From positions 1,963,649 through 2,027,648 of the forward strand of contig CP075368.1 of the NCBI GenBank assembly GCA_019454185.1: a stretch of DNA of 64,000 nt, given 5' to 3'. Under the pieces are notes generated by a model. It saw only the letters and a list, made by a program, of their open reading frames with translations. It did no database searches and was not told the DNA's origin. A program made the translations under genes and the position numbers. Positions within the stretch are counted from its first letter, which is position 1. Each line of letters opens with the position of its first letter. The stretch is from Phycisphaeraceae bacterium (GTDB lineage Bacteria > Planctomycetota > Phycisphaerae > Phycisphaerales > UBA1924). Shown here piece by piece: positions 36,951-39,153 of this stretch.

Positions 36951-37787
36951 TCACCTGCGCCGACGTCCGACGAACGCAAGACCCATCCCCATCGCGACGA
37001 GCGTCGTCGGGGCGGGTATTACGCTGTCGAGATAGTCTGTGAGCGTGCGGAGGGTGATCTCGGTGGCGAGCACTGCTGCATCAAACGGGGTGTCGATCCC
37101 GACGTGGATGTGTCCCGCGGCAAAGTTTCTGTACGCGGCGTCTTCGCTGTTATTCATCGAGTGGTACCACACCCCATGAAGACCGATGAACTCGGAGAGA
37201 AAGTTGCCGCCCGTGCCGGTGGTGTCGAGGTAGACATCGTTGATGATTCCGGCCGCCGCGACCGCGTCGCGTATCTGCTCTTTCGGGAGAGAGGAATACA
37301 GATCCGTGCCGACGGGAAGGGCTTGGAAAATCGGCGAGTCCAGATCAGGCAATGAGGGCGCGCTGTAGTCCGGAGCCCAGAGGTGTTGTGCACGTCTGCG
37401 ATGACGAGTCTCGATCTCCCATGAGCTGCCGGGATTGCCCCTGCTGAAGGTGATGATCGCCGCCGGCTTGAGCTCGTCTGTAATGCGATGCCAATCGGCT
37501 ACGGTGTCCTGGTAGTCAACCTCAAAGTCGCCGACACCCCTCCCCCAGTTCGGGCCGGTCTGGCCGGGGAACTCGGGGAAGTAGGAGTAGATGTTGTACC
37601 CGCGTCCCTCCCAGTTTTCCCCCACCCAGCCGAGCGGGTTCTGCTCAGGATTCGCGCTGAACTGGCGCACCATGTTGTTGGTCTGAGGCCAATAGCCCGT
37701 GATCATGATGTTGCGGGTATGGCCGGCGTCGGCAACAAGGGTCGCGGCGGACACTCCGACTGCGGCAGCGAGGCATCGATTCCACAT
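36951..37787 (-). CDS. Secreted pyroglutamyl-peptidase-like (C15) protein with PEP-CTERM-like tail and Cys-to-Ser active site
   Basis: 278 residues. Signal peptide ~1-22; then blocks matching pyroglutamyl peptidase I in order: NIMITGYWPQ (VTGFEPF), SSWEIETRH with Glu126, LYSSLPKEQIRDAVAAAGI, TGTGGNFLSEFIGLHGVWYH and AAGHIHVG with His228. Where C15 enzymes have the catalytic Cys (LCNY), this protein has Ser198 (LSEF). The C-terminus (IPAPTTLVAMGMGLAFVGRRRR) is a PEP-CTERM-like sorting signal: Pro-containing motif, helix, basic end. It may be a serine variant or a non-catalytic binder on the cell surface. The ATG at 37787 has AGGGG 9 nt upstream; earlier in-frame starts lie before the signal peptide. 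Confidence 0.75.
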   Translation of the reverse strand: MWNRCLAAAVGVSAATLVADAGHTRNIMITGYWPQTNNMVRQFSANPEQNPLGWVGENWEGRGYNIYSYFPEFPGQTGPNWGRGVGDFEVDYQDTVADWHRITDELKPAAIITFSRGNPGSSWEIETRHRRRAQHLWAPDYSAPSLPDLDSPIFQALPVGTDLYSSLPKEQIRDAVAAAGIINDVYLDTTGTGGNFLSEFIGLHGVWYHSMNNSEDAAYRNFAAGHIHVGIDTPFDAAVLATEITLRTLTDYLDSVIPAPTTLVAMGMGLAFVGRRRR

Positions 37788-37907
37788 CTCTGTGACCCCT
37801 TTCAGATAAACAGACGCACTCCGAGCCATCGTGGCTCTTCCAGTGTGACTGACGTTCGGCATTCGTCAACCGGTTTGGTCCAAAAAAGCGAACCAGTCAC
37901 GATTCCC

Positions 37908-37920: not shown

Positions 37921-39153
37921 ATGATCCGGGTTCATGGTCAAGGTGTGCGTGTGGGAGCGGTCCTCGGATGGGCGATCTACCTCGCCGTGTCATGGACATG
38001 GTGCATCGGCATGTTCCTGCCGATTCTGCTCCTGCGTGACTTTGGTCCGCTTGGCTACATCGCATTCGCGGTTCCGAACGTTCTGGGTGCCGCGGCCATG
38101 GGGTGGCTCATCATGAGCCCGGAAGCCAGCCGGCGATTTGTCCAGCGCCATCGGGCGGCGTGTGTCACCTTCAGTCTCGTCACCGCCTTATTCCATCTCG
38201 CGTTTGTTCTCGCAGTGATCTACCCGCTCGAATTGCTCAACCGGGGGATGCTCGCGACGAGCGTTGTGCTTCTCGCGCCACTGGTTCTCTCCTGGCTCGA
38301 CCGACCACGAGCGACCGCGCTGATCACCTACGCGATCAGTGTCGGAGTCATCTCAACGTTCATCGCACGCGGCTGGATCCCGGCTCCTGATGCTGACCCG
38401 CTCGCAGCCGAGTTGCTCAGGTCGTTCCGCCAGCCAGCCGCGGCTGCGCTGATGCTCGCCCCGGCGTGCGTCTTCGGCTTCTTGCTGTGCCCGTACCTCG
38501 ATCTGACGTTCCATCGCGCACGCCAGAACCTGACAGGGACAGAATCACCCCTGGCGTTCGGGATCGGATTCGCGATCTTCTTCCTCGCCATGATTCTCTT
38601 CACGATCGCTTACGCGCCCGTGTTCACCCCTCGTCTTGATAAGAGCACCACCCTCCCGAACCAGACACTGCTCCTTGCTCTGCTGCTGCATCTGACCGCT
38701 CAATCCACGGCAACCATCGCCTTCCATCTCCGAGAGCTGCACCGGCCATCATCCGGGCCATGGGGTCGTTTCCTGGCCATGTTCCTGGCATCCGTAGCGG
38801 TGATCGCGCTTGGCTGGCTCGCAGCGTGGAGACCGGACATCGCTGGCCCCCCCGCTCTCTCAGACGAGCACCAGAAACTGGTGTGGTACAGGATCTTCAT
38901 GTCCTTCTATGGACTCGTCTTTCCCGGGTACGTCTGGCTCGTCTCGATACCAACCCGAGATGGCCATGCTGGTCCGCGAGGGTCTCGTGGACGGAAGAAG
39001 CTCCGTGTCCTCGTCCTCGTTGTGGCACTGGCCGCTCCCTGCTTCTGGCTTGGCTTCGTCGAGCGGGAGACGTGGTGGCTGCTTCCCGGCATGGCGGTGA
39101 TGCTGGGCTCGCGTCTCTTGATTACTCCGAGGCCTCACCGGCGGGGTCTCTGA
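37921..39153 (+). CDS. Polytopic membrane protein of unknown function
   Basis: 410 residues with about 11-12 hydrophobic segments (for example ~11-38, 45-65, 80-106, 109-126, 131-149 and several to the end). The start WAIYLAVSWTWCIGMFLPILLLRDFGPLGYIAF, followed by PNVLGAAAMGW, resembles the first helices of some secondary transporters, but I find no family signature such as a sodium or MFS loop motif. Transport function is a guess. It runs alone on the plus strand and overlaps the convergent queG by 32 bases. Confidence 0.7.
   Translation: MIRVHGQGVRVGAVLGWAIYLAVSWTWCIGMFLPILLLRDFGPLGYIAFAVPNVLGAAAMGWLIMSPEASRRFVQRHRAACVTFSLVTALFHLAFVLAVIYPLELLNRGMLATSVVLLAPLVLSWLDRPRATALITYAISVGVISTFIARGWIPAPDADPLAAELLRSFRQPAAAALMLAPACVFGFLLCPYLDLTFHRARQNLTGTESPLAFGIGFAIFFLAMILFTIAYAPVFTPRLDKSTTLPNQTLLLALLLHLTAQSTATIAFHLRELHRPSSGPWGRFLAMFLASVAVIALGWLAAWRPDIAGPPALSDEHQKLVWYRIFMSFYGLVFPGYVWLVSIPTRDGHAGPRGSRGRKKLRVLVLVVALAAPCFWLGFVERETWWLLPGMAVMLGSRLLITPRPHRRGL

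Follow-up and report, generated by a model that had tools for sequence, protein, structure and literature searches.

A planctomycete protein related to pyroglutamyl peptidase I with serine at the position of the catalytic cysteine

The gene, its export signals and its fold

The window, a 64,000-nucleotide stretch of contig CP075368.1 from a Phycisphaeraceae bacterium, carries on its minus strand a gene for an exported protein that resembles the C15 peptidases. Its features were as follows.

36951–37787, minus strand: complete gene, 278 aa; the product is C15-like, exported, and has Ser where C15 has its nucleophile (ORF call; dN/dS)
37796–37802, minus strand: AAAGGGG, ribosome-binding-like, just upstream of the ATG at 37787 (read from sequence)
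37725–37787, minus strand: signal peptide, residues 1–21, likely cleavage between ADA and G (read from sequence; low model confidence at residues 1–19)
37017–37718, minus strand: C15-fold domain, residues 24–257 (AF2 pLDDT mostly >90; VIA match to 1iof with Z 21 and 2.0 A across 180 residues)
37443–37445, minus strand: Ser115 (AGC), covarying perfectly with position 198 (alignment columns)
37410–37412, minus strand: Glu126, equivalent of the triad acid (Glu in all 68 family domains and all 24 C15 rows)
37194–37196, minus strand: Ser198 (TCC) at the position of the C15 catalytic Cys (profile alignments)
37110–37112, minus strand: His226, Phe or Trp in C15 and His in every Ser-type member (alignment columns)
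37104–37106, minus strand: His228, equivalent of the triad histidine (His in all 68 family domains and all 24 C15 rows)
36954–37019, minus strand: PEP-CTERM sorting tail, residues 257–278 (PAPTT ... RRRR) (TIGR02595 above cut-off; exosortase in the genome)

Comparison with a 97%-identical relative (L022) gave dN 0.007 and dS 0.26, and the resulting dN/dS of ~0.03 indicated purifying selection on the window gene. The signal peptide was read as MWNRCLAAAVGVSAATLVADA, with cleavage before G. The tail scored 18.6 bits against the PEP-CTERM model TIGR02595 (cut-off 16) and 19.4 bits against PF07589, just under that model's cut-off of 20.7, and the window genome contains an exosortase (EpsH; PF09721, E=3.7e-44). 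These results bore out the signal peptide and PEP-CTERM-like tail that an earlier sequence-only reading of the gene had described, and its residue numbers for Glu126, Ser198 and His228 were correct on the translated ORF. The only cysteine of the protein is Cys5, inside the signal peptide; the mature protein has none, and thus no conserved Cys elsewhere in the active site.

Synteny around the gene was kept in near relatives only, and included a queG-like gene and a membrane protein gene. The latter (window 37921–39153, plus strand) encodes a divergent protein of 410 aa that likely sits in a membrane and matches nothing in Pfam, and it adjoins the focal gene in L022–L026 also. Comparison of distant loci yielded no recurring neighbour, so that no partner or pathway is named here.

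Searches with the window protein alone missed its homology to C15: it had no match to PF01470 at the curated Pfam cut-off, and neither an NCBIfam scan nor phmmer against the PDB recovered the relationship. Profiles and relatives recovered it. Two divergent Cys-type relatives (L018 and L019) scored above the PF01470 cut-off, and the family profile hit a classical C15 protein from planctomycetes at E=1.8e-9 and PDB chains of C15 enzymes at E=0.001. When a profile of Ser-type members only was aligned with the classical C15 profile (hhalign E=9e-7), Ser198, Glu126 and His228 fell in the columns of the triad. The AF2 model, whose pLDDT averaged 87.6 and was mostly >90 within the domain, had the C15 fold: its best 34 Foldseek hits were all C15, and VIA Z was 17.8–21.4 for C15, whereas nucleosidases and nucleoside phosphorylases, the next fold, reached 11.8. 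The alignment with pyroglutamyl peptidase I that had been proposed from the sequence was therefore upheld by bridging relatives, by profile comparison and by fold.

Clan CF comprises one family, C15, with a triad of Glu, Cys and His (2025 review, PMC12445089). In the window protein the catalytic Glu and His are in place, aligned and invariant, and the cysteine nucleophile is replaced by Ser198. Because it has no catalytic Cys and falls below the Pfam cut-off, we did not file the protein in C15; its family is a sister to C15 that probably works like a serine analogue.

The family set comprised 68 distinct domains drawn from 392 genomes of the phylum, 397 genomes of the class and a GTDB pattern scan, and was compared with 24 classical C15 rows. 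The GTDB scan, which reaches close relatives only, returned Planctomycetota only. Relatives were found neither in the plasmids searched nor in the viral contigs searched, and a limited literature search found no description of the family. We concluded that this is a planctomycete family without a name, typically exported and sister to C15. The N-termini were signal-like and the C-termini varied. Many homologues shared the Ser, and about a third of these ended in a PEP-CTERM-like tail; other C-termini were dockerin-like repeats, one of them with a PF00404 score under the cut-off, or, in L029, an IPTL-like tail recognized by eye. Some members carried an extra C-terminal region of ~110–160 aa without a Pfam name.

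Several architectural observations were made in passing. Ten Ser-type members (L004, L007, L008, L010, L011, L014, L015, L016, L017, L065) have a common extra C-terminal region of ~110 aa; this L004/L008-type region ends in a SNA..(L/F)LP-like motif, and the one copy tested (L008) had no Pfam match. Many longer Ser-type members, in a Ser clade of 19 rows, share four cysteines (CxxCG, FIC, WC) in columns around window residues 77–83, 187 and 221, none of which the window protein has; they likely form disulphides. In two Cys-type members (L102, L084) the open frame is >1300 aa and the C15-like domain lies close to its N-terminus, and a 656-aa open frame elsewhere (G044:C260:31866-33098) has two tandem PF01470 matches.

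The sequence-only reading had also contrasted the export signals with a cytoplasmic location of C15 enzymes. The contrast stood for the window protein, which is exported, unlike typical C15; as a general rule it did not, since a classical-type C15 (L056:1303-2076, plus strand; PF01470 E=4e-40) carries a lipoprotein-like signal (LAAGC), and exported C15 proteins thus occur outside this family too.

Position 198 and its partner at 115

Position 198 was Ser in 52 of the 68 family domains and Cys in the remaining 16, and nothing else. Column 115 was the sole column to split perfectly with it: Ser115 accompanied Ser198 and Gly115 accompanied Cys198, and Gly was also the residue at 115 in all 24 classical C15 rows. 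Thr113 and His226 were fixed among Ser-type members and were found in some Cys-type ones as well.

The codons at the two sites differed in class. Against an overall AGY:TCN ratio of ~40:60, Ser115 used AGY in 47 of 52 members and Ser198 used TCN in 51 of 52 (Fisher p 8e-14 and 8e-10, in tests that treat related sequences as independent). To pass between AGY and TCN, a serine codon must either go through another amino acid or change two bases at once. Because the two classes are not interchangeable by one silent step, serine has been held at both sites, and the codons fit single-step origins, GGY to AGY at 115 and TGY to TCY at 198, with serine kept since. A conserved serine at position 44 likewise keeps one codon class; hence the codon data argue for constraint or constancy more than for function or catalysis.

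These columns bear on whether the site is active. It could be that the protein is a surface-exposed pseudo-peptidase, in which the C15 fold was kept for binding or structure and Ser198 is a non-catalytic leftover in a site that binds a ligand without turnover. The family-specific Trp33, Trp54, Trp59, Trp123 and Trp137 suggest ligand binding, and in the papain family a natural exchange of Cys for Ser can leave the protein without activity (PMC8583781); because of that natural example we keep the explanation in consideration, as a rather unlikely one. Against it, Glu126 and His228 do not change, and position 198 alternates between Ser and Cys alone, repeatedly shifting in step with 115. In a dead site, the rest of the triad is usually lost as well, or the nucleophile position drifts to something besides Ser. 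Because every member kept the triad, 198 is limited to two nucleophiles and 115 is locked to it, a dead site is hard to explain. The sequence-only reading had offered two alternatives, a serine version of the C15 triad and a binding protein derived from a peptidase; the pattern in the alignment leads us to favour the first, with Ser198 as a putative active nucleophile.

If the site is active, the protein might be a secreted serine-type pyroglutamyl peptidase that acts on the classical C15 substrate and trims pGlu-blocked peptides extracellularly, a special case of the hydrolase reading. The fold, the triad positions, the conservative replacement of the pocket Phe by Tyr32 and the lack of any PF01470 match of its own in the window genome all speak for this. 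We take the positions of the FxPF-loop aromatic and Arg116 to be the pGlu pocket of C15 that Odagaki 1999 reportedly described. At the second aromatic of that loop, all Ser-type members have Pro, Gln or Glu: column 35 is Phe or Tyr in 24 of 24 C15 rows and never in a Ser-type member. In addition, Arg116 occupies a position where C15 enzymes usually carry Gln, Glu or Leu, and the family has many Trp residues of its own. We therefore consider a pyroglutamyl peptidase unlikely; the loss of the pocket aromatic, together with the five family-specific Trp residues, indicates that the substrate is probably not, or not only, an N-terminal pyroglutamyl peptide.

Tree placement and oxygen respiration

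Trees were built on ~230 columns. With the trait columns removed, the family formed a single clade that excluded classical C15, and the branches nearest its base were all Cys, the same as in C15. The Ser/Cys label changed five times in the family-only tree (4–6 times in bootstraps, with at least three changes forced by well-supported branches), and one genome (G661) has both a Ser-type copy (L087) and a Cys-type copy (L104). The later changes may have been either returns to Cys or repeated gains of Ser. The pattern of labels might also arise from one Cys-to-Ser change and errors in the tree, with no repeated switching: three nested Cys rows (L091, L092, L104) lie on weakly supported branches, and the trees use only those ~230 columns. 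Nevertheless, a single Ser clade was rejected by the AU test (p=0.003, and p=0.04 when both alignment and model were changed), and a four-row Cys group (L028, L031, L083, L088) had 99/99 support inside a clade supported at 96/91. A single change is thus distinctly improbable to us, and the tree suggests that the key nucleophile atom was exchanged more than once with one fixed second change, and not merely broken.

Before counting oxidases, we had supposed that oxygen would make an exported thiol a liability. COX1 was absent from 8 of 16 genomes with a Cys-type copy versus 1 of 45 with Ser-type copies only (p=3e-5). Because some PF00115 matches (those in G673, G721 and G762) may be nitric oxide reductase and not oxidase, we added COX2 as a second marker; it was absent from 9/16 and 1/45, respectively (p=6e-6). 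[FeFe]-hydrogenase was present in 9 of the 16 Cys-type genomes versus 3 of the 45 Ser-type genomes (p=1e-4); relatedness inflates all three of these p values, and several of the genomes are incomplete. Within one order the p values were 0.017 for COX2 and 0.20 for COX1. Three well-supported independent pairs were available for sign tests of the 115/198 and oxygen correlations, which consequently had low power; for oxygen, 1.9 of the 3 agreed and none opposed. Cys forms are concentrated in genomes without a haem-copper oxidase, a suggestive association given the few tree-independent pairs.

Proposed enzyme and comparison with known systems

We think it likely, from the alignments and the modelled fold, that the window protein is an exported C15-fold hydrolase with a Glu126-His228-Ser198 triad. 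The PEP-CTERM/exosortase route would sort the hydrolase to the cell surface. There Ser198, activated by His228 and Glu126, would take the place of the C15 cysteine and attack an amide (or ester) carbonyl. Ser115 may serve as a compensating partner, such that Cys198 needs Gly115 and Ser198 needs Ser115: Gly115 would give space for the larger sulphur, and Ser115 would fill or polarise the space beside the serine oxygen. Serine could have been favoured because a free thiol is prone to oxidation outside an aerobic cell.

The broader proposal is more tentative, and we would place it slightly on the doubtful side of even: the nucleophile may have switched between Cys and Ser several times, with the same single partner (Gly or Ser at 115), the exported enzyme relying on serine where the lineage respires oxygen and on cysteine mostly where it is anaerobic, and the Ser-type members may form the first serine branch of clan CF. 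A serine branch, if true, would make clan CF mixed-nucleophile, and oxygen respiration, with which the switch is apparently linked, could explain why exported enzymes would change their nucleophile.

With C15 (MEROPS; PF01470; clan CF) the window protein shares the fold (Z ~21), a Glu, a nucleophile and a His in matching order and positions, and several blocks: GxFxCN-like, GFIHV-like, Asn50, Asp140 and the SLP helix block. It differs in having Ser for the nucleophile Cys, Ser115 for Gly, a lost pocket Phe and extra residues within the domain, in being exported and surface-anchored, and in its ~17% identity to the solved C15 structures. With PEP-CTERM/exosortase substrates (PMC1569441) it shares the N-terminal signal peptide, the C-terminal tail, a single-gene transcription unit and an exosortase in the genome; most such substrates show little homology to anything known, whereas the window protein has a recognisable peptidase fold. 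Another natural case in which Ser stands in for the catalytic Cys is Sl-CathL-CS, a papain-like pseudo-cysteine protease that is inactive and regains activity with Cys (PMC8583781). However, Sl-CathL-CS is an insect gene product with a papain-like fold, and the window protein has the C15 fold and belongs to a long-lived bacterial family.

Change of nucleophile in enzymes has been studied by laboratory evolution, as in TEV protease, where the Cys-to-Ser exchange costs ~10^4 in activity and is recoverable by few mutations (PMC4576821). Ser/Cys exchange in the PA clan and in evolved TEV protease shares with the present case a Cys-to-Ser change with compensating substitutions. The fold differs, and in the planctomycetes the change is natural and lies within one family, a natural series at ~40–55% identity with one strictly paired site; therefore the minimal path (115 and 198) is directly testable by two-residue swaps in both directions.
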